Source: Azospirillaceae bacterium | Lineage (GTDB): Bacteria > Pseudomonadota > Alphaproteobacteria > Azospirillales > Azospirillaceae | Reading direction: 5' to 3' | DNA: 64,000 bases | Assembly: GCA_028283825.1 (NCBI GenBank) | Contig: JAPWJW010000003.1 | Coordinates: forward strand, 2,294,501-2,358,500 | Shown here: positions 5,017-64,000 of the stretch, one piece after another | How positions within the stretch are numbered: the first letter of the stretch is position 1 | Layout of the letters: each line of letters begins with the position of its first letter | Notes under the pieces: model-generated | Seen by the model: only the letters and a program-made list of their open reading frames with translations | What the model was told of the DNA's origin: nothing | Database searches by the model: none | Position numbers and translations under genes: made by a program

Positions 5017-5090
5017 GCCGTAGCCCGCGATCACGGGCGCCGGAGCTTTCCGGGAAGCGAAGCGGACTGGAAAGCGCGGATAAGAGAAGG
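5017..5090 (-). repeat. Three-hairpin dispersed repeat, copy R1 (reverse, 5'-truncated)
   Basis: On the minus strand it reads linker CTTATCCGC, hairpin C with stem GCTTTCC/GGAAAGC, TCCGGC, then a hairpin D variant (GCCCG/CGGGC). Hairpin A is missing. It lies between the TVP38-like gene and tam. Confidence 0.8.
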
Positions 5091-5876: not shown

Positions 5877-5943
5877 CTCAAGCGCCGGCAGACGCTATCG
5901 CGCCCTACAGCGGCATGGGCCAAACGCGCACGCCGCTGGTATA
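5877..5943 (+). repeat. Dispersed repeat, internally deleted copy R2
   Basis: It keeps the left end CTCAAGCGCCGG and the optional right-end hairpin E (CAGCGGCATG ... CACGCCGCTG) but lacks the linker and hairpins C and most of D. It looks like a deletion derivative of the full repeat. Confidence 0.65.
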
Positions 5944-6324: not shown

Positions 6325-6432
6325 TTTCTCAAGCGCCGGCGGCGCTTCCGCGCCTTGGCTATCCTCGCCTTCCGGTCCGCTACGCTCCCCAAAAGGCTCC
6401 GGCGGACGCCGTCGCGTCCTAGTCGCTACGCT
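6325..6432 (+). repeat. Three-hairpin dispersed repeat, copy R3 (forward)
   Basis: Order: CTCAAGCGCCGG, hairpin A (GGCGC, loop TTCC, GCGCC), linker TTGGCTATCCTCG, hairpin C (GCCTT/AAGGC), CTCCGGC, hairpin D (GGACGC/GCGTCC). It fills the gap between two convergent genes. Confidence 0.85.
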
Positions 6433-23654: not shown

Positions 23655-23790
23655 TCCCTCAAACGCCAGGGCGCCCGCATCCGCGGGCTGGGCTTGTCCT
23701 CGAATTTCAGTCCGCTAACGCTCCCCGAAATTTTCCGGCGGCCGCAGTCGCGGCCTACAGTGGCATGAGGCAAGACCTCACGCCGCTGTA
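23655..23790 (+). repeat. Three-hairpin dispersed repeat, copy R4 (forward, with hairpin E)
   Basis: CCTCAAACGCCAGG, hairpin A (GCCCGC, loop ATCC, GCGGGC), linker GGCTTGTCCTCG, hairpin C (GAATTTC/GAAATTT), hairpin D (GGCCGC/GCGGCC), then hairpin E (CTACAGTGGCATGAGG with CCTCACGCCGCTGTAG). It lies between convergent mmcB and acs. Confidence 0.88.
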
Positions 23791-27479: not shown

Positions 27480-27597
27480 CCTCAGTCGCCGGGCGCCGCC
27501 GGATGGCGGCTTGGCTATCCTCGCTGCGCCCTGCGGTACTCGCTCCGGAGTCGGCGGTCGCCGACCTTCGGTCCGGATGCTCCGGACCTGAGATATG
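27480..27597 (+). repeat. Dispersed repeat, diverged copy R5 (forward)
   Basis: The left half is intact: CCTCAGTCGCCGGG, hairpin A (GCCGCC, loop GGAT, GGCGGC), and linker TTGGCTATCCTCG. The right half (27525 onward) no longer fits hairpins C and D and has its own short inverted repeats (GGTCCGGA/TCCGGACC). Confidence 0.75.
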
Positions 27598-34339: not shown

Positions 34340-36070
34340 ATGACCGGTGAAGGATCGGCGCCCAACAACATCAGCAGCGGGGAGAAGGGCGACGGCAGCC
34401 CCCAGGTGGATGTGATCGTCGAGCGTTTCGGCGGCATCCGTCCCATGGCGGCCAAGCTGGGCATCCCCGTGACCACGGTCCAGGGCTGGAAGAAACGTGG
34501 CACCATTCCCCCCAACCGGCGTGCGGACCTGGAAACCGCCGCCGCGCGCCTGGGCATTTCCCTGACCGCGGCCGAACTGGACGCGGCGATGGGCGCGCCG
34601 GAACCGGTGGCGCCGGCCGCCCCCGCCATCGCCCTGCCGTCGCCCGGCACCAGCCTGGCCACCCAACCCACGCCTTTCCTGTCGGCACCCGGTTCGTTCG
34701 TGCCCAAGCCGGATGCCAAGCCTGAACCCAAACCGGACCCGGCGCCCAGGATCGAAACTTTCCGGACGGAGACCAAGGCCGATCCCTTCAAGCCGGACCC
34801 GGCGAAGCCCGAGGGTGCGCGCCCCGCTTTCCGTGGTGACGCTGCACCCCCGCCGCGTCCGCCCCAGGCCCCGCCGACCGTCGTCAAGCGGGGTGGTGCG
34901 GTGTCCGCGCTGGCCCTGCTGGTGGCGCTGGCGGCCCTGGGCGCCGGTGGCTACAGCCTGTGGCGCGGCGGCGCGCTGGACCCGGCCCTGATCCGCCTGG
35001 GCCTGGCGCCGGTGGGTGGCGTGTCGGCCGAACCGGCGCCGGCGGCCGACTATGTCGGCACCCAGACGGCGTTGGCGGAGGTGGGGCGGCGCCTGAGCGC
35101 CGCCGCCCAGCGCCAGCAAGCCTTGGAGCAGGAGGTGGCCGACCTGAAGGCCAAGCTGGCCGCCGCGCCCGCCGCGGCCACCGGCGATGGCGCCCCGGCG
35201 GCCGACCCCGCCCTGGCCGCTCGCCTGGACCAGATGACGGAGCAGTTCACCCGCCTGACCGATCGTCAGCGGGCGCTGGAGCAGGCGCTGGCGCAATCGG
35301 CGCAGCAGCGCGAGGAATTGAGCGCCCGGTTGGCGGCGCAGAACGCGGCCGCCGGGCGGGGCCAGGCCTTGCTGGTCGCCACCAACCAGTTGCAGGCGGC
35401 CCTGGTGGCCGGCCGACCCTATGACGTGGAACTGTCGGCCGTGCGCAGCCTGGCGCCGGACGACGACGCCCTGCGCCAGATCCTGGATCGGCTGGCCCAA
35501 ACCCAAGGCAAGGGCCTGGCCGGGCCGCTGGCCCTGCGCGACGGTTTCGACCGCGCGGCGGATGCCGCCCAGCGCGCCGCCCGCGTGCCGGAGGGTGCCG
35601 ATTGGCTGGAGCAGCTGTGGGGCCGGCTGAAGGCCCTGGTCACCATCCGCCGCAAGGACGGACATATGGAGGGCAATGAGCCCGACGCCGTGGTCTCCCG
35701 CGCTGGCGCCGCCCTGGATCGCGGCGACCTGGGCACGGCCGTGGCCGAGATGTCGGCCCTGGCCGGTCCGCCGGCCGCGACGCCGGAGGTGCAGGCCTGG
35801 CTGCGCGACGCGCAGGCCCGGCTGGCGGCGGATGACGCCATGACCCGCCTGTCCCGCCGTGCCGTCAGCGACGTGCAGGGCGGCCTGCCGCCCGCCAAGG
35901 AGCAAGCGAAGGAAGCGCCCAAGGACGGGCCTGCCGAATCCCTGCCTCTTCCGGAGAACAAGCCGGAACCGCCGTCCGCCGAAGGCGCCAAGCCCGAGGG
36001 CCAGCCGGATGGTGCGACGCCGCAGCCGGCACCCGCCGCCGACAACGCCCAGGACGGGGGCCACCTATGA
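34340..36070 (+). CDS. Mic60/mitofilin-like protein with an N-terminal helix-turn-helix
   Basis: 576 aa. The conserved alphaproteobacterial ancestor-type of mitochondrial Mic60 sits here after hemD and shapes membranes or contacts the outer membrane. Order: a helix-turn-helix-like segment (about residues 22-75: VIVERFGGIRPMAAKLGIPVTTVQGWKKRG), a long Pro/Lys-rich linker, one membrane helix (SALALLVALAALGAGGYSLW, about residue 190-210), a coiled coil (about 245-350), the mitofilin domain (AALVAGRPYDVELSAVRSLAPDD to QAWLRDAQARL), and a disordered acidic tail. A DNA-binding-like module ahead of a membrane helix is unusual. It overlaps hemY by 4 nt. Confidence 0.85.
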   Translation: MTGEGSAPNNISSGEKGDGSPQVDVIVERFGGIRPMAAKLGIPVTTVQGWKKRGTIPPNRRADLETAAARLGISLTAAELDAAMGAPEPVAPAAPAIALPSPGTSLATQPTPFLSAPGSFVPKPDAKPEPKPDPAPRIETFRTETKADPFKPDPAKPEGARPAFRGDAAPPPRPPQAPPTVVKRGGAVSALALLVALAALGAGGYSLWRGGALDPALIRLGLAPVGGVSAEPAPAADYVGTQTALAEVGRRLSAAAQRQQALEQEVADLKAKLAAAPAAATGDGAPAADPALAARLDQMTEQFTRLTDRQRALEQALAQSAQQREELSARLAAQNAAAGRGQALLVATNQLQAALVAGRPYDVELSAVRSLAPDDDALRQILDRLAQTQGKGLAGPLALRDGFDRAADAAQRAARVPEGADWLEQLWGRLKALVTIRRKDGHMEGNEPDAVVSRAGAALDRGDLGTAVAEMSALAGPPAATPEVQAWLRDAQARLAADDAMTRLSRRAVSDVQGGLPPAKEQAKEAPKDGPAESLPLPENKPEPPSAEGAKPEGQPDGATPQPAPAADNAQDGGHL

Positions 36071-38476: not shown

Positions 38477-38512
38477 TTACACCTGGCTTTTGATCGTGGC
38501 CGATCAAAAGCT

Positions 38513-38548
38513 GCCCGCAGTTGCCGGGTGCGGCCATCCGGCCGCTTG
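38513..38548 (+). repeat. Three-hairpin repeat copy R6, left half (split by IS110)
   Basis: CAGTTGCCGGG, hairpin A (GCGGCC, loop ATCC, GGCCGC), then CTTG, where the insertion element begins. The right half resumes at 39695. Confidence 0.85.
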
Positions 38549-38565
38549 TATCTTCCCAATCTGCG

Positions 38566-38737
38566 TAAAGTAGCGCCGTCACGGGCTGGGGCATGCCCCA
38601 GCCCGTGATCCGACCGGAAGACCGTTCCAACGGCGGGAAGTTCCGGCTCCGTAGCCAAGCAAGGCTCTCCGGTCGGCCCCTTCATTAGCCCGAACAGTTG
38701 CACGGGGTCGCCGCCCCGCATGCGCAAGGCTGGGAGT
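38566..38737 (+). ncRNA. Candidate IS110 bridge RNA
   Basis: The left non-coding end has the length and fold expected of an IS110-group bridge RNA. A -10-like TAAAGT ends at 38571. A 30-nt perfect palindrome at 38579-38608 would form the 5' stem-loop. A second structure is closed by GACCGGA (38612-38618) and TCCGGTC (38668-38674), and a third is closed by CCCC/GGGG around 38677-38706. In the second, AGCCAAG (38653-38659) is complementary to the target CTTGGCT. In the third, ACAGTTGC (38694-38701) equals the element's own right-end sequence at 39688-39695. The other two guides could not be assigned. Confidence 0.65.
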
Positions 38738-39685
38738 ATGAAGATGGCGCAGAACGACTCTATCATCGCCCTGGATGTCAGCAAGGACCGTCTCGACGGC
38801 TTCGACGATGAAACCGGGGATGTCTTCCAAATTGAGAATTCCCCGGCTGGCTACGTGGCTTTGCGGCAACGCTGCCGGAAACGCACCGTGCAGATCGTCA
38901 TGGAGGCCAGCGGTGGCTATGAACGGCCCGTCGCTCAGACCATGGTGAAGGCCGAGATCCCAGTTCGGATCGTCGACCCCCGCAAGGTTCGCTACTACGC
39001 CAAAGCTTCCGGTCGTTGGGCCAAGAATGATCGGCTCGACGCCCGCATGATCGCAGCCTATGCCAAGGCGATCAAAGGGGAAGACCACAAGCCGGACAAA
39101 GACCGGGAAGCGTTGGCTGAGCTGACAACATACCGCCGCCAATTGCTTGAGGATCGGACCACGATCACCAACCAGGCCAGACGGCTGGAGAACGCCGAAC
39201 TGCGCCGACTGGCCAAGCGACGATTGAAATCCATCGCCCTTCAGATCGTCCTGGTCGATAAGCGCATCGCCAGCCACATCGCCGCCTCGGAGGTCTTGAA
39301 GACCAAGAACAAATTCCTCCGCTCCATCCCCGCCATAGGCCCTGTCTTCGCAAGTACCGCGCTGGCCCATATGCCCGAACTGGGCGCCCTTACACGCCAA
39401 CAGGCTGCCGCCCTCGCCGGCGTCGCACCCATGGACAATCAAAGCGGAAAACGCGACGGGCCCCGGAGCATCTACGGCGGAAGACCCGCCGTCCGTAACG
39501 TTCTCTACATGGCCGCCGTCGTCGCCAGCCGCCACAACCCACCCCTGGCCGCCTTCTACAAAAAGCTCATCGCCGCCGGCAAAAAGCCCAAGGTCGCTCT
39601 CACCGCACTCATGCGGAAAATCATCGTCCTCGCAAACTCAATCCTCAGGCAACAGCGCGAATACGATCCGGCTCACGCCTCATGA
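38738..39685 (+). CDS. IS110-family transposase (DEDD recombinase)
   Basis: 315 aa from the ATG at 38738 (an in-frame ATG at 38720 is possible). The RuvC-like DEDD domain shows IIALDVSKDRLDGF (first Asp), VMEASGGYERPVAQ (Glu), and KNDRLDARMIAAYA (two Asp). The C-terminal Tnp20 domain shows LRSIPAIGPVFASTALAHMPELGALTRQQAAALAGVAPMDNQSGKRDG with the catalytic Ser region (QSG), and RRPAVRNVLYMAAVVASRHN-type ending. Full length, so probably active. Confidence 0.95.
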   Translation: MKMAQNDSIIALDVSKDRLDGFDDETGDVFQIENSPAGYVALRQRCRKRTVQIVMEASGGYERPVAQTMVKAEIPVRIVDPRKVRYYAKASGRWAKNDRLDARMIAAYAKAIKGEDHKPDKDREALAELTTYRRQLLEDRTTITNQARRLENAELRRLAKRRLKSIALQIVLVDKRIASHIAASEVLKTKNKFLRSIPAIGPVFASTALAHMPELGALTRQQAAALAGVAPMDNQSGKRDGPRSIYGGRPAVRNVLYMAAVVASRHNPPLAAFYKKLIAAGKKPKVALTALMRKIIVLANSILRQQREYDPAHAS

Positions 39686-39694
39686 AGACAGTTG

Positions 39695-39775
39695 CTTGGC
39701 TTGTCCTCGGTTTCCAGTCCACTTCGTTCCCCGGAAACCTGCGGCGGACGCGGTCGCGTCCTAGTCGCTTCGCTC
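39695..39775 (+). repeat. Three-hairpin repeat copy R6, right half
   Basis: CTTGGCTTGTCCTCG linker, hairpin C (GGTTTCC/GGAAACC), TGCGGC, hairpin D (GGACGCG, loop GT, CGCGTCC), CTAG. Joined to 38513-38548 it restores a whole repeat. Confidence 0.88.
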
Positions 39776-39789
39776 CGAAATGAGCCTTC

Positions 39790-39897
39790 CTAGGCCCCGA
39801 CTGGGGCCGCCGGAGCTTGTCCGGGGAGCCGCAGGCGGACTGGAAAGCGAGGACAAGGCAAGGGCGCGGATGCGCCCGCCCGCCGCCTGAGGGAACG
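39790..39897 (-). repeat. Three-hairpin dispersed repeat, copy R7 (reverse)
   Basis: On the minus strand: CCTCAGGCGGCGGG, hairpin A (GGGCGC, loop ATCC, GCGCCC), linker TTGCCTTGTCCTCG, hairpin C (GCTTTCC/GGACAAGC, one bulge), hairpin D (GGCCCC/GGGGCC), CTAGG. With R6 it forms an inverted pair. Confidence 0.88.
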
Positions 39898-40757: not shown

Positions 40758-40799
40758 CGGATGCCGTCAGTCGCCGGGCGCGGCCAGTCGCGGCCTAAG
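40758..40799 (-). repeat. Dispersed repeat, short deletion derivative R8
   Basis: CAGTCGCCGGGCG (left end) is joined directly to CGGCCAGTCGCGGCC (hairpin D side) without the linker and hairpin C. It touches the end of the phosphatase gene. Confidence 0.6.
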
Positions 40800-41418
40800 G
40801 GAGATGGTTGACGGTGCGCACGGCCCAGGCCCCGCCATCGGCGCTGTGCGGATCCGGAATATGCTCCAGCCGCGTCAACGCCAGGGGCGACACGTCCAGC
40901 GCCAGGGCGCGGGCGGGCGTCAGGTCCAGGGCCAGGGCCACGGCGGCGCGCACCGGGCCGGCGTGGCTGACGCAGACGATGTCGTGTTCGCCGTCGGGGG
41001 CCAGGCGTTCCCCCACGGCTTGGGCCAGACGGCGGCACAGGTCGGCGAAGCTTTCACCGCCCGGTGGCGCCTGGTGGGTGGGATCGGCCCAGAAGGGCGC
41101 CAGGCTGGGGTCGCCCTCGGCCTCAAGGTCGGCGTAGCGATGGCCCTGCCAGCGGCCGAAGGACTGTTCCATCAGCCGGCCGTCGGTCTCGATCACCGGG
41201 CGGGGGCCGGGGATCAATGCCGCCAGGCGCTGCGCCGTCTCATGCGTGCGGGTCAGCGGGCTGGACAGCCAGCGGGCGCCGGTGGGCAGGCGGGCGGCCA
41301 GGCGTACGGCGGCGGCGTGGGGCCAGGGGGCCAGGGCCACGTCGGCCTGGCCGGCGATGCGGTCGGGTTCCGCCAGGGGGGCGTGGCGTATCCACCACCA
41401 GCGCGTCACACCGGTCAT
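40795..41418 (-). CDS. cobC: Histidine phosphatase, probable alpha-ribazole phosphatase
   Basis: 207 aa. The histidine phosphatase core is RWWWIRHAPLAEPDRIAGQADVAL (catalytic RH), SSPLTRTHETAQRLA, LMEQSFGRWQG (Glu) and CVSHAGPVRAAVALAL (second His). Its ATG overlaps the cobS stop (ATGA), which supports the role of removing phosphate from alpha-ribazole 5'-phosphate in the last steps of cobalamin assembly. Confidence 0.85.
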   Translation of the reverse strand: MTGVTRWWWIRHAPLAEPDRIAGQADVALAPWPHAAAVRLAARLPTGARWLSSPLTRTHETAQRLAALIPGPRPVIETDGRLMEQSFGRWQGHRYADLEAEGDPSLAPFWADPTHQAPPGGESFADLCRRLAQAVGERLAPDGEHDIVCVSHAGPVRAAVALALDLTPARALALDVSPLALTRLEHIPDPHSADGGAWAVRTVNHLP

Positions 41419-43444: not shown

Positions 43445-43547
43445 CTAGGCCCCGACCGGGGCCGCCGCAGAATTCCGGGGAGCGGCAGCGGACTGGAATT
43501 CGAGGATAGCCAAAGGCCCGGACGGGCCTGCCGGCGCCTGAGGAACC
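43445..43547 (-). repeat. Three-hairpin dispersed repeat, copy R9 (reverse)
   Basis: Minus strand: CCTCAGGCGCCGG, hairpin A (AGGCCCG, loop TC, CGGGCCT), linker TTGGCTATCCTCG, hairpin C (GAATTCC/GGAATTC), TGCGGC, hairpin D (GGCCCCG, loop GT, CGGGGCC), CTAGG. It lies between convergent cobT and the GntR gene. Confidence 0.9.
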
Positions 43548-57655: not shown

Positions 57656-58057
57656 TCAGAAATCGATGTCAGGCCCCACCAGATAGATGTATTTCCCCTC
57701 CGGCGTCTTCACAAACCCTGATCCCCCCATGTCGATCGTCCAGTTGAGCCGCTGGCCATCGCGGGTGGTCAGGTAGCCCTCCGCGTAGCATTCGGTGGTG
57801 GTCGCCTCCTCATTGAAATTCTCACTGGTGACCTCCCGGGTTTTCCTCAGCCATTTCAGGATGTTCTTTTCCGACGGCTTGAATCTCCTGCATGCGGTCT
57901 CGATGTACGGCCGTCCCGTTTCCTGGGGCTCATAGATCGCCGTCTTTTCCACCGTCAGGTTTGCGACGGTGAAGCTGTGGGGGCGGGCGCAAGCGGTGGA
58001 TGCCGCGACGCATGCAAGGAAAAGCGGAAGGACGAGGACGCGGCACCTGATCGCCAT
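57656..58057 (-). CDS. Small secreted protein of unknown function
   Basis: 133 aa. A signal peptide (MAIRCRVLVLPLFLACVAASTACA) is followed by a mixed alpha-beta domain with ACRRFKPSEKNILKWLRKTREV and GQRLNWTIDMGGSGFVKTPEGKYIYLVG at the end. Three cysteines remain after cleavage near residue 24-26. The region is less GC-rich than the neighbours. No family is recognised. It converges with rmuC, with 16 nt between stops. Confidence 0.7.
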   Translation of the reverse strand: MAIRCRVLVLPLFLACVAASTACARPHSFTVANLTVEKTAIYEPQETGRPYIETACRRFKPSEKNILKWLRKTREVTSENFNEEATTTECYAEGYLTTRDGQRLNWTIDMGGSGFVKTPEGKYIYLVGPDIDF

Positions 58058-58225
58058 GTCACACCTGAGCTGAGTTCCGAACCCGCATGGTCCACACACG
58101 GAACTATGCGCCGCCGCCCGCGCGGGCAATTGTCCGGATTGCGTAGGGGCTTTCGTCTGTCGCGCCCGCTGGCTCGGCGGCATTATGGTGGGCGTGTCAC
58201 GCCCTTCTTGCCGGAACCCGTTCCC

Positions 58226-58864
58226 ATGACCACCCCGCCCCGCCTCTGGGACATCAGCCAGCCTTTGCGCCCCGGCTTGCCGGTGTGGCCGGGGGACACG
58301 GCGTTCGGGGAGGAACGGACCTGGGCGATCGGGCCGGGCTGTCCGGTGAACGTCAGCCGGCTGGTGATGTCCACCCACAGCGGCACCCATGCCGACGCAC
58401 CCCTGCACTACGACGCCAGGGGGCTGACGGCGGGTGCGATGGATCTGGCGCCCTATCTGGGGCCGGCGCAAGTGGTGACGGTGCCGGCGGGCGTCCCCTT
58501 CGCCACGGTGGATCATGTGGCGCCGCATTGGCGGCCGGGCGTGCCCCGTCTGCTGCTGCACAGCTACGACCGCTTTCCGCATGATGCTTGGCGGTCGGAT
58601 TACACCGCCATCGACCCGGCGCTGATCGATTGGCTGGCGGGGCTGGGCGGGGTGCTGCTGGGCACCGACGCGCCGTCGCTGGACCCGCAGGACAGCAAGG
58701 ATTTGCCGGCCCACATGATGCTGAACCGCCACCGTTTGGCGGTGTTGGAAGGGTTGGTGTTCGACGGTGTGCCCGACGGCGTATACGAGCTGATCGCCCT
58801 GCCGCTGCCCCTGGGCAACGCCGACGCCTCGCCGGTGCGGGCGGTGTTGCGGGAACTGGCCTGA
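58226..58864 (+). CDS. kynB: Kynurenine formamidase (arylformamidase)
   Basis: Hydrolyses N-formylkynurenine in tryptophan breakdown; 212 aa, cyclase-family metal-dependent fold. MTTPPRLWDISQPLRPGLPVWPGDTAF at the N-terminus and the metal motif STHSGTHADAPLHYDARG are diagnostic, as is LLGTDAPSLDPQDSKDLPAHMMLNRH. No kynurenine dioxygenase or kynureninase is in the window. Confidence 0.93.
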   Translation: MTTPPRLWDISQPLRPGLPVWPGDTAFGEERTWAIGPGCPVNVSRLVMSTHSGTHADAPLHYDARGLTAGAMDLAPYLGPAQVVTVPAGVPFATVDHVAPHWRPGVPRLLLHSYDRFPHDAWRSDYTAIDPALIDWLAGLGGVLLGTDAPSLDPQDSKDLPAHMMLNRHRLAVLEGLVFDGVPDGVYELIALPLPLGNADASPVRAVLRELA

Positions 58865-58876
58865 ACCGAAACTCTT

Positions 58877-58978
58877 GACGCGACCGCGTCCGCCGGAGTT
58901 TTCCGGGGAGCGGAGCGGACTGGAAAACGAGGATAAGCCCAGCCGCCGGATGGCGGCGCCCCGCGCCTGAGGGAACAC
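58877..58978 (-). repeat. Three-hairpin dispersed repeat, copy R10 (reverse)
   Basis: Minus strand: CCTCAGGCGCGGGG, hairpin A (GCCGCC, loop ATCC, GGCGGC), linker GGCTTATCCTCG, hairpin C (GTTTTCC/GGAAAAC), TCCGGC, hairpin D (GGACGCG, loop GT, CGCGTC). It lies between convergent kynB and the TauE/SafE gene. Confidence 0.9.
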
Positions 58979-61858: not shown

Positions 61859-63175
61859 ATGCAGGCACAGGTCACGGCACGCGTTCGGCATCCGGTAGGG
61901 TTCTGGTTCGTCTTCTGGGGGGAATTGGCCGAGCGCGCCTGTTATTACGGCATGCGCACGCTGCTGGCCCTGTACATCACCGCGCAGCTCGGCTTCTCCG
62001 ACAGCGACGCCGCCACCGTCATCCAGGTGTTCATGGCGTCCTGCTACGCCCTGCCGCTGATCGGCGGCTTCATCGCCGACCGCTGGCTGGGCCGCTATCC
62101 CACCATCATCATCTTCTCCTTCCCCTACATCGCGGGGCAGGTGGCGCTCAGCTTTGCCAGCACACCCTGGATGCTGTACGGCAGCCTGGCCATGCTGGCG
62201 GTGGGTGCCGGCGCCATCAAGCCGAACGTCAGCCCGCTGATGGCCCGCATGTACCAGGAACAGGGCAAGGAAGCCCTGATGGACAAGGCCTTCAGCTACT
62301 TCTACGTGGCGATCAACATCGGCGGCTTCGTCACCTCCTACGCGCTGCCCTGGGTGCGCGACAAGGCGGGTTACCAGGTGGCGCTGATGCTGCCGGCCGC
62401 CCTGATGGCCATTGCCCTGGTGGCCTTCGCCGCCGGCCGCCGCTTCTATCCGCAGGAAAGTGCCGCCGACCGTCGTGCCGCCCGTGCCCGGCAGGTGGCG
62501 GAGGGGGCGGCGGGCATGACGCCGGAGGAGCGCACCCGCCTGTTCCGCATGCTGGCCGGCTTCCCCATGCTGCTGGTGTTCTGGATGGCCTATGACCAGA
62601 CCGCCACCACCTGGGTGTTTTTCGCCCGCGACTATATCAACCTGGACCTCTGGCCCTTCGGTTTCGACCTGACGCCGGACCAGCTTCAGGCGGTCAACCC
62701 GTTGATGATCATCGTGCTGACCCCCATCTTCAACGCCTTCTGGGGATGGCGCGACCGGCGCCAGGGGGCCATCACCCCGGCGCGGACCAAGGTGTTCGTG
62801 GGTTTCCTGATCACCGCCCTGTCCATCGCCATCATGGCCCTGGCCGGTTATCTGGCCAGCGCGGAACACCCGGTCAGCATCTGGTACATGCTGGTTTCCA
62901 ACGTCGTGCTGGGCTTTGGCGAGCTGTGCATCAGCATGATCGGCCTGCAATGGGCTTATATGGAGGCGCCGGCCCGGCTGAAATCCTCCATCACCGCCCT
63001 CTTCCTGCTGACCGTCTTCGCCGGCGACATGGTGGGCGGGCTGTACGTCCAACTTTATGGCCGCCTGTCGTCCTTCAACTACTTCGGCGGCCAGGTGGCA
63101 GCCCTGCTGGCGGCGGCGGCTTTCTTCTACGCCGTGTCGCTGCGCCGCCAGCGTACGGTGCCGGCGGTCGCCTGA
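61859..63175 (+). CDS. POT-family proton-coupled oligopeptide transporter (2)
   Basis: 438 aa, 12 or more membrane helices. TM1 carries GELAERACYYGMRTLLALY (ExxER), then SCYALPLIGGFIADRWLGRYPTI and GSLAMLAVGAGAIKPNVSPLMARMYQ, then FYVAINIGGFVTS. It is shorter than the first POT since it lacks the large loop, like typical DtpT/DtpA forms. The ATG at 61859 has AAGGA at 7 nt. No adjacent peptidase gene. Confidence 0.9.
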   Translation: MQAQVTARVRHPVGFWFVFWGELAERACYYGMRTLLALYITAQLGFSDSDAATVIQVFMASCYALPLIGGFIADRWLGRYPTIIIFSFPYIAGQVALSFASTPWMLYGSLAMLAVGAGAIKPNVSPLMARMYQEQGKEALMDKAFSYFYVAINIGGFVTSYALPWVRDKAGYQVALMLPAALMAIALVAFAAGRRFYPQESAADRRAARARQVAEGAAGMTPEERTRLFRMLAGFPMLLVFWMAYDQTATTWVFFARDYINLDLWPFGFDLTPDQLQAVNPLMIIVLTPIFNAFWGWRDRRQGAITPARTKVFVGFLITALSIAIMALAGYLASAEHPVSIWYMLVSNVVLGFGELCISMIGLQWAYMEAPARLKSSITALFLLTVFAGDMVGGLYVQLYGRLSSFNYFGGQVAALLAAAAFFYAVSLRRQRTVPAVA

Positions 63176-63188
63176 CCGTCCTCAACCC

Positions 63189-63323
63189 GGCGGCATGAGG
63201 CAAAACCTCATGCCGCTGTAGGACGCGACCGCGTCCGCCGGAGATTTCCGGGGAGCCGCAGGCGGACTGGAAATCGAGGACAGCCAAGGGCCCGGACGGG
63301 CCCGCCCGGCGCCTGAGGGAACA
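63189..63323 (-). repeat. Three-hairpin dispersed repeat, copy R11 (reverse, with hairpin E)
   Basis: Minus strand: CCTCAGGCGCCGGG, hairpin A (GGGCCCG, loop TC, CGGGCCC), linker CTTGGCTGTCCTCG, hairpin C (GATTTCC/GGAAATC), TCCGGC, hairpin D (GGACGCG, loop GT, CGCGTCC), then hairpin E (CATGAGG/CCTCATG). The most complete copy. Confidence 0.92.
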
Positions 63324-63338
63324 CGGAAAGAGCAAAAG

Positions 63339-63377
63339 AAAAGGCCGCCGTCCTCTGCCAGGACAGCGGCCTTTTTC
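63339..63377. terminator. Bidirectional rho-independent terminator
   Basis: An AAAAGGCCGC arm and GCGGCCTTTTT arm, with inner GTCC/GGAC, between the convergent POT and LuxR-type genes. It has a T-run on the plus strand and an A-run on the other side (T-run on the minus strand). Confidence 0.88.
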
Positions 63378-63441
63378 TTTGAGCCCGCTTGCATGGGGCT
63401 TCGTGGGGAGGCGGTGCTGAAAGGAAAGGTGCGGCCCTGCG

Positions 63442-64000
63442 TCAGGCCGCACCGGCGGTGGGTGTGGCTTCCGTCAGGCCGTTGTTCAGGGCCCAGATGG
63501 CCGCCTGTGTGCGGTTGTTGCAGTTGATCTTCCGCAGCAGGCTCTTCAGGTGAACCTTCACCGTGGCCTCGGTAATGTGCAGGCCGTTGGCGATCACCTT
63601 GTTGCTTTCACCGCGGACCAGGGCGCGCAGGATCTGCGTCTCCCGCATCGACAGCCCCTTGTGCGGGCTGCCGGTTCCGACATTGCCATGGTTCTGCTGG
63701 GTCAACAGCAGGGCCAGGTCGGACGGGAACACCTTTTCCCCCAGCATCACCAGATGCAGGGATTGGATCAGGGCGTTGGACGACCGGTCCTTGGTGAGAT
63801 AGCCGTCGATCCCAGCCTCCAGCGCCATGCGCAGGCGGGGGGCGTCGAAGCCATTGGTCAGATAGACCAGGCGGGCCTCAGGGAACAGGCTGTGCAGTTG
63901 GCTGACGGTCGAGCGGAACTCGCCCGCGTCGGTGACATCGAACAGGACCAGGGTTATCCCCCGGCCCGGCGCCTTGCCGTTCGATACCTCATTGAGGGTA
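63442..64000 (-). CDS. NarL/FixJ-type response regulator, N-terminus beyond window
   Basis: At least 185 aa are in the window; the frame continues past 64000. The receiver end is visible: ITLVLFDVTDAGEF (putative phospho-acceptor Asp), LVYLTNGFDAPRL in place of the usual T/S switch strand, and ALEAGIDGYLTKDRSS with the conserved Lys. The LuxR HTH is LSMRETQILRALVRGESNKVIANGLHITEATVKVHLKSLLRKI. The kinase partner, if any, lies outside the window. Confidence 0.88.
   Translation of the reverse strand, partial: TLNEVSNGKAPGRGITLVLFDVTDAGEFRSTVSQLHSLFPEARLVYLTNGFDAPRLRMALEAGIDGYLTKDRSSNALIQSLHLVMLGEKVFPSDLALLLTQQNHGNVGTGSPHKGLSMRETQILRALVRGESNKVIANGLHITEATVKVHLKSLLRKINCNNRTQAAIWALNNGLTEATPTAGAA

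Follow-up and report, generated by a model that had tools for sequence, protein, structure and literature searches.

A composite, REP-like palindromic repeat with covarying hairpins at the 3′ ends of genes in an Azospirillaceae bacterium

The DNA analyzed here is a stretch of 64,000 nucleotides from an Azospirillaceae bacterium (assembly GCA_028283825.1, contig JAPWJW010000003.1, positions 2,294,501 to 2,358,500 of the forward strand), which is referred to as the window; positions are counted from its first letter. Between the genes of the window lie copies of a dispersed repeat built from hairpins, which has hundreds of copies in the host genome, with covarying stems, conserved unpaired motifs and a location at the 3′ ends of genes. 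An earlier reading made from the letters alone (the sequence-only reading) listed 12 intervals of the window as copies of a dispersed intergenic repeat, and all 12 hold sequence of the kind that it described. A covariance model trained on 60 copies, three of them from the window, matched ten of the 12 at E<=0.0013, and the other two (5877-5943 and 40758-40799) were unmatched at E<=1; judged by eye only, these two are shortened derivatives. Moreover, 38513-38548 and 39695-39775 do consist of repeat sequence but are not two copies: they are the two halves of a single one that an IS110 element has divided. The copies and the inserted element are listed below, with hairpins labeled A, C, D and E; genes were called with a custom codon-usage script, not Prodigal.

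5017..5090, minus strand: partial copy, hairpins C and D (covariance model)
5877..5943, plus strand: short derivative with left end, D-like hairpin and E hairpin (by eye; unmatched by the model)
6325..6432, plus strand: full copy A-C-D between convergent genes (covariance model)
23655..23790, plus strand: full copy A-C-D-E between convergent genes (covariance model)
27480..27597, plus strand: variant copy, hairpin A loop inverted and hairpin C short (covariance model)
38513..38556, plus strand: left half (hairpin A) of the IS110-split copy (covariance model)
38549..38719, plus strand: putative bridge-RNA region of the insertion sequence (IS), with an inferred boundary; AGCCAAGC at 38653-38660 complements the repeat's GCTTGGCT
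38720..39685, plus strand: IS110-family transposase inserted in the repeat (PF01548, PF02371)
39691..39775, plus strand: right half of that split copy, with hairpins C and D (profile)
39790..39897, minus strand: full copy A-C-D, adjoining the split copy and inverted relative to it (covariance model)
40758..40799, plus strand: shortest derivative, left end and one hairpin (by eye; unmatched by the model)
43445..43547, minus strand: full copy A-C-D between convergent genes (covariance model)
58875..58978, minus strand: copy that fills a 120-nt convergent intergenic region (covariance model)
63189..63323, minus strand: full copy with CCTCA end, hairpin A, linker, hairpin C, TCCGGC and hairpin D; hairpin E extends to about 63189 (105.6 bits)

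On the top strand, the order of the parts is CCTCA(A/G)-CGCCGGGC, hairpin A, a TTGGCT-TCCTCG linker, hairpin C, TCCGGC, hairpin D and CTA. Hairpin A has six pairs and an ATCC loop, with an outer GCC/GGC helix of three pairs beyond an internal loop; hairpin C has seven pairs, an AGTCC/TCCCC internal loop and a small inner stem; and hairpin D has six pairs. The three core hairpins and their order agree with the sequence-only reading, whose account is to be extended by an optional fourth hairpin, E, found downstream of D in 45 of the 108 copies with both ends aligned. In 17 copies, 35-48 nt separate the stop codon from CCTCA, and 15 of these 17 stretches fold at <=-8 kcal/mol. By eye, 11 of the stretches hold a hairpin of the TTTGA(T/A)CG type, four hold a second left end of the repeat, and two hold a hairpin and a T-rich tail. 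The TTTGA(T/A)CG-type hairpin is another repeated hairpin, the outer pairs of which vary, and by eye it also occurs at 38486-38511 of the window. Some short versions contain fewer modules, which makes the family a mosaic. The element is a mosaic palindromic repeat resembling the repetitive extragenic palindromic (REP) sequences, noncoding and non-autonomous, with the core A, C and D and, optionally, E or a hairpin before CCTCA. With respect to the criteria for miniature inverted-repeat transposable elements, no terminal inverted repeats were seen by eye in the listed copies, and the empty sites are too unclean for a target site duplication to be read.

The number of copies was assessed with a sequence profile that was seeded with six window copies and then iterated. 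The iterated profile identified 145 copies at E<0.001 in 1.264 Mb of host DNA, made up of 864 kb from contig 3 (the window among them) and 400 kb from contig 1. At E<0.1, it matched 173 times in 1.78 Mb of total DNA and not once when the same DNA was reversed. A pattern for hairpin A with free arms and at most one mismatch has 204 matches in the whole host genome and is present in 53 of the 145 profile copies, from which we extrapolate to about 560 copies genome-wide, an estimate that presumes the same miss rate outside the surveyed 1.26 Mb as inside it. The density is uneven: the contig 3 stretch holds 15.6 matches per 100 kb, and the contig 1 stretch, at 4.0, holds about four times fewer, with 11 of its 16 matches crowded into one 100-kb bin. 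The covariance model, a check that the sequence-only reading had proposed, was run on the window and on the genomes of the family and recovered the repeat; three additional weak matches in the window, at 35376, 46574 and 23740 (E 0.21-0.91), were taken as chance. Copy numbers per genome from blastn and the covariance model, for which 40 and 49 candidates were scored, are lower bounds. The repeat is real, structured and REP-like.

The sequence-only reading held that the stems change while pairing is kept, and it named two outcomes that would contradict it, namely an absence of significant covariation and the origin of the copies as identical recent duplicates. Neither was found. Pair statistics were computed on 142 of the 165 aligned copies, with 23 copies left out for more than 12 gaps. 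As had been claimed, the second pair of hairpin C varies among all four Watson-Crick types (CG 52, GC 36, AT 31 and TA 16 in 141 copies). When column pairs in the 142 copies are ranked by corrected mutual information, the top 15 all coincide with base pairs that the model contains; one of them is the long-range pair 10-35 (C-G 122, G-C 15). Against a tree-based null, which was generated by a custom script modeled on the idea of R-scape with 60 simulations and is not R-scape itself, ten column pairs are significant, and all ten lie inside the structure. For the structure named beforehand, pairing is kept in 95.1% of stem cells. Changes on both sides affect 259 cells; shuffles give 74.6, and sliding the partner gives no more than 57. 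Neither the count of pairs with at least one double change (16 vs. 13.9 in shuffles, reached by 45 of 500) nor that of further pair types (40 vs. 36.0, reached by 25 of 500) is exceptional. RNAalifold, when left unconstrained, predicts 22 pairs in the same helices, 15 of them with double changes. Furthermore, at four orthologous sites with 15 copies, pairwise comparisons, which are not independent of each other, yield 37 pair changes that keep Watson-Crick pairing, one-sided mismatches comprising 21 A·C, 8 G·T and 13 others, and a single two-sided non-pair.

The arms themselves were examined in the 127 host-genome copies among the 142. Nearest-neighbor identity has a median of 0.907, with nine of the 127 copies at >=0.95 and two identical. 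Mean major-base frequency is 0.788 in paired columns and 0.908 in unpaired columns. There are 32 distinct arms for A, 34 for C and 19 for D, and they combine almost freely (116 distinct combinations in 127 copies), with a weak association that was reached by 15, 23 and 31 of 500 shuffles. The covariation test and the paired changes at orthologous sites in sister species support the claim of the sequence-only reading that the folded form is selected, and we consider such selection probable from these sequence patterns. A reader of a folded single strand would treat the kept loops and the drifting stems differently, which a binder of double-stranded DNA would probably not do. A closing stem GCCGG/CCGGC that appears in the folded bottom strand of one copy was rejected, since it has no covariation backing; column 10 covaries with column 35, not with column 80.

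The mismatches in the stems are not symmetrical between the strands. On the top strand, A·C mismatches number 63 and G·T mismatches 24 when pair 51-69 is excluded; that pair alone holds 32 A·C cells, and its inclusion yields 95 vs. 25. The lean toward A·C is found per pair (18 vs. two in the opposite direction, with three ties; p 4e-4) and per copy (45 vs. 16, with three ties and 78 copies without either mismatch; p 2.6e-4). Conserved unpaired columns have the opposite transition bias (G>A 4/960, C>T 51/2794). Since A·C on the top strand corresponds to G·T on the bottom strand, which is a tolerated wobble, the asymmetry is as if the bottom strand folds. In the first 127 of the 142 copies in file order, the bottom strand has the more stable RNA fold in 121. 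The unpaired parts of the bottom strand conserve GGGGA, GGACT, GAGGA and the loop GGAT.

The copies are located behind genes. Among intergenic regions of >=60 nt, a copy is present in 62 of 109 convergent, 67 of 419 tandem and two of 178 divergent regions (p 8e-17 and 5e-9). Among the 108 copies with both ends aligned, the CCTCA end faces a stop codon in 79 cases, and in 48 of these the two are 2-14 nt apart. Beyond the genus, 45 of the 92 matches found in a named collection were assessed for context, after Nitrospirillum, one metagenome-assembled genome (MAG) and matches with <1 kb of flank were dropped. The stop of an open reading frame (ORF) lies <=60 nt before CCTCA in 26 of these 45 and <=20 nt before it in 12, compared with six of 45 random positions at <=60 nt. 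In the same 45 matches, CCCTCA, the first five bases of which sit several positions outside the search pattern and are not required by it, is kept at 87-98% per base, and T occurs at 49-67% six to nine nt upstream. REPs near stop codons in E. coli have been reported to stall ribosomes. At the end of the shortest derivative in the window, the CTA at 40795-40797 serves on the minus strand as the TAG stop codon for the called gene 40795-41418; by eye, its counterpart in sister species is apparently TGA or TAA. The mechanical ORF 57656-58978 has its 5′ end inside the repeat, and the translated repeat leads to false protein matches across the genus.

The occupied sites differ between sister species (G1 to G6). 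The site at 23655..23790 holds a full copy in G2 and G6, a degenerate copy in G4 and none in G5 and G3, and it is not covered in G1. The site at 6325..6432 is occupied in G2 and G4 and empty in G6, the other sister species not being covered there. These two sites are thus filled in some species and empty in others, and the site syntenic with 43445..43547 has a different arrangement in G1, G2, G3 and G4 and no copy in G6. The site at 27480..27597 holds a copy in all six sister species; in the window, the hairpin A loop of this copy (27480-27567) reads GGAT instead of ATCC. The contig 1 stretches of the host and of G6 (G006), a genome grouped in one genus with the host, were considered as a syntenic pair and rejected, as they are not syntenic.

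In the family, the hairpin-A pattern occurs in 24 of 82 genomes and four of 13 genera, and the covariance model matches 44 of 82 genomes and five of 13 genera. When the class was sampled evenly, 22 of 385 genomes, including the host and two others of its family, and 17 of 277 genera had matches to hairpin A with free arms; the reversed-pattern control had none. In the named collection, an initial search pattern had no matches; later, at least 120 stretches were matched, of which 80 listed loci were examined. According to their titles, these 80 belong to Alphaproteobacteria, or to Proteobacteria in the case of two MAGs, and their genera include Niveispirillum, Magnetospirillum, Telmatospirillum, Roseomonas, Falsiroseomonas, Sphingorhabdus and Erythrobacter. 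Although the search did not constrain the arms, complementarity extends to all four arm pairs in 84 of the 92 matches in these loci, to three in six and to two in two; the 92 include many near-identical copies of the C5coas MAG, and 26 share one arm. A genome from another genus, G010, has 446 pattern matches, and the copies are near-identical among the 19 matches listed, which suggests a recent spread. Copies in G010 (L165-L174) often stand at contig ends, and a recent burst probably breaks the assembly there. Another genome, G077, has no match to the strict regular expression in 200 kb and 44 pattern matches in its whole genome.

The IS110-family element spans 38549-39690, inside the repeat copy 38513-39775. 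Seven close copies of this IS were found, four in the host (one of them in two pieces) and three in G006 at 66% identity. Six of the seven are flanked, according to the profile, by both halves of the repeat at the same point; in the seventh (L185), the profile identifies the left half, and a variant of the right half can be made out by eye. The 5′ noncoding part of both IS types contains AGCCAAGC, the 8-nt complement of the target GCTTGGCT, a match for which no significance was computed. The target loop of the bridge RNA is complementary to the insertion target (PMC11208160), and AGCCAAGC is as would be expected of such a loop. Among 12 loci of distant IS110 relatives, ten lack any match to the repeat at E<=1; a complete copy lies near L191, and L199 shows the first 30 columns. 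In the parts of the literature available to us, IS110 elements are known to insert in REPs (PMC1525189). The arrangement here resembles those systems in that an IS110 occupies one fixed point in a repeat and carries a 5′ complement of its target, and it differs in that the repeat is the target and not the IS, a target not named in what we saw of those accounts (PMC1525189, PMC11208160).

The sequence-only reading likened the size of the repeat to that of ERIC and REP families and did not recognize the repeat itself. At the Rfam gathering score, the window has no matches, and 63000-63500 has six sub-threshold ones at 14.4-22.2 bits against cut-offs of 40-55. BIME, ERIC and RIME/ABC are, like the present repeat, composite palindromic sequences between genes, or mosaic elements. 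According to the portions consulted of a survey of REPs (PMC3733652), the GTAG and CGTC superfamilies are single hairpins of 20-40 bp with a GTAG or CGTC tag. REPs are described there as high-copy and intergenic, lying chiefly between genes that converge or run in the same direction; in the two species diagrammed, most of the convergent ones are <20 bp away from stops. They have alternative complementary stem residues within families and form head-head dimers, and GTAG ends often supply TAG stops (PMC3733652). Our repeat shares with these REPs its position, stop distance, complementary stem changes, TAG stops and missing transposase; these properties are already described for REPs and are not new in kind. 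In contrast, it is about 100-135 bp long and has three to four hairpins and conserved linkers.

An unpaired terminal GTAG is found in >90% of the members of most GTAG families (PMC3733652), whereas on the bottom strand of our hairpin D the TA of columns 98 and 99 is present in 100% of letters, the preceding base is G in 62 of 108 copies, C in 33, A in 11 and T in two, and pairing in the model begins at the last G of GTAG. The RAYT expected of that superfamily has no match in the host and six congeners, and the Y1 genes of G010 are unflanked by the repeat under a strict pattern. CGTC repeats have no dedicated transposase and are chiefly alphaproteobacterial, with a stem of 8-9 bp that opens with two A·T pairs, a loop of 4-5 nt and a CCA tail (PMC3733652, as far as the text seen describes them). 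Of their terminal tag, which is CGTC or, in many, TGTC or CCTC, only the CCTC variant is found here (columns 1-4 at 99-100%). No dedicated transposase of the Y1 class, the one class searched, was found, and, compared with the text description alone, there is no A·T start and no CCA tail, the right end being CTA. RAYT-associated REPs and REPINs are likewise palindromic with paired stem changes but, in the account available to us, are defined by repeat-flanked RAYT genes (PMC2817692), none of which was found here. Br-REP1 of Bradyrhizobium, as the part of its description that we saw has it, comprises three palindromes, lies where the 3′ untranslated regions of convergent genes overlap, has its central hairpin at about 200 sites, and is seen in transcripts (PMC5082802). 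It is similar as a three-palindrome repeat between convergent genes in Alphaproteobacteria; however, its central consensus is unlike A, C and D, and a GAGATT(T)CCGG-like stretch is common, by eye only, to it and some C copies. The broad features of REP-like repeats (high copy number, palindromic sequence, extragenic and 3′-end location) are all present. By the tests made, which for CGTC rely on its text description, the repeat is a new composite variant of the REP kind and not a member of GTAG, CGTC or RAYT-REP, and the likeness noted in the sequence-only reading stands. In the literature searched, which leaves subscription journals mostly outside, we found no account of the composite architecture, of kept unpaired motifs with drifting stems, of the strand asymmetry or of the class-wide distribution. 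Six sequence stretches of the repeat occur in no paper of the open literature searched, and the repeat literature on Nitrospirillum, Azospirillum and Niveispirillum, judged by titles and the starts of abstracts, contains no description of it.

On balance, we lean toward the explanation that the element propagates by way of a folded strand and is tolerated or retained behind genes, where it has a 3′-end effect. According to this explanation, the copies would be spread by an enzyme that recognizes one folded single strand, the bottom strand in the order D-C-A, through its unpaired motifs, and recognition of this kind would leave the stems free to drift while pairing is kept. Behind genes, a placed copy would be tolerated or retained, most of all in convergent regions. 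There, a transcript arriving from either side would fold into strong hairpins, which should keep it from reading through into the opposing gene and should shield mRNA 3′ ends. We infer both the one-strand spread and the function behind genes, and the propagation half is better supported than the 3′-end function. Several observations weigh against this explanation. The copies share ancestry, so that cell counts and pairwise comparisons are not independent events, and one copy, when folded with DNA parameters, forms the model structure only in part. At tandem genes, sense copies (20 A·C vs. 7 G·T) and antisense copies (26 vs. 4) lean the same way in their wobble asymmetry, and the orientation of copies relative to these genes is random (35 vs. 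36), which speaks against an origin of the asymmetry in selection on the host mRNA; the asymmetry seems to belong to the element rather than to the host transcript. In the sister genome G006, the preference for convergent regions is less marked (convergent 6/32, tandem 14/181, divergent 0/67), and convergent vs. tandem falls short of significance (p 0.09). Classical terminator signatures are about equally frequent with and without the element (35/124 vs. 27/76 at convergent ends; 12/64 vs. 80/328 at tandem ends), so that the element as a replacement of T-tract terminators is unsupported. As for the enzyme, the Y1 transposase model PF01797 has no match in the host and six congeners, Y1 being the only enzyme class searched, and neither of the two Y1 genes of G010 is flanked by the repeat as the strict pattern sees it.

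The closest rival, to which we give a substantial but less than even chance, is a purely selfish repeat that shares the propagation half, keeps its structure for copying only and has no host function, its 3′-end sites being what was left after purging from genes and promoters. Its near-absence from divergent regions fits promoter avoidance, and the random orientation in tandem regions, the patchy distribution in the class and the turnover of sites between species are in keeping with it. However, convergent regions are occupied about 3.5 times as often as tandem regions, though both have 3′ ends, and the CCTCA ends lie nearer to stops than avoidance needs, a closeness that an insertion preference could equally produce. 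That the element is a bidirectional intrinsic terminator, as its convergent location and strong hairpins on both strands could suggest, we consider unlikely: the flank consensus has no T-tract after the hairpins on either strand, and the presence of the element is not accompanied by a clear drop in T-tract terminators. Intrastrand template switching at replication (quasipalindrome correction) would create paired changes independently of selection on the fold; it yields perfect palindromes, and the reversed hairpin A loop of copy 27480, possibly a template-switch product, is an expected by-product. This process is quite improbable as the general cause, as it predicts no strand asymmetry, and it leaves unexplained both the unpaired motifs conserved in distant genera and the covariation of pair 10-35, by which hairpin A is closed outside the internal loop. 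GGA in loops suits CsrA, and several unpaired parts of the bottom strand contain GGA, which would fit a binding site or sponge for an RNA-binding protein of this type. We regard such a role as very improbable, and the CsrA sponge itself is ruled out by PF02599, which is unmatched in all 82 family genomes and matches three of 14 control genomes. Mobilization as a RAYT-dependent REP or REPIN family, for which the GTAG opening of hairpin D, the copy number and the 3′ location would speak, is largely refuted and retains hardly any credibility. The RAYT model NF047646, like PF01797, has no match in the host and six congeners, and a RAYT/Y1 transposase is rejected on these grounds as the mobilizer in this genus; the tag base is variable; and Y1 genes, present in 22 of the 82 family genomes, are found in three of the 24 genomes that have the hairpin-A pattern and in 19 of the 58 that lack it.

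Taken further, the explanation of propagation by way of a folded strand would make the repeat a structured nucleic acid spread among the Alphaproteobacteria, with one folded strand that is read via its unpaired motifs and propagated by non-RAYT machinery; we offer this as a tentative possibility with the chances rather against it. The T-rich stretch outside CCCTCA, which on the bottom strand is an A-rich 3′ side, leaves room, speculatively, for an RNA-templated route such as that of short interspersed nuclear elements. The spread of REP-like repeats without a RAYT was stated as an open question in the part of the 2013 survey that we saw (PMC3733652). The present case offers an estimated 560 or so copies in a single genome from a cultivated genus, near-identical copies in G010, a clean structural model and an asymmetry that predicts the recognized strand, and together these make the search for a mobilizer or a binding protein a concrete experiment. 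The landing site of an IS110 in the repeat provides a second testable handle.
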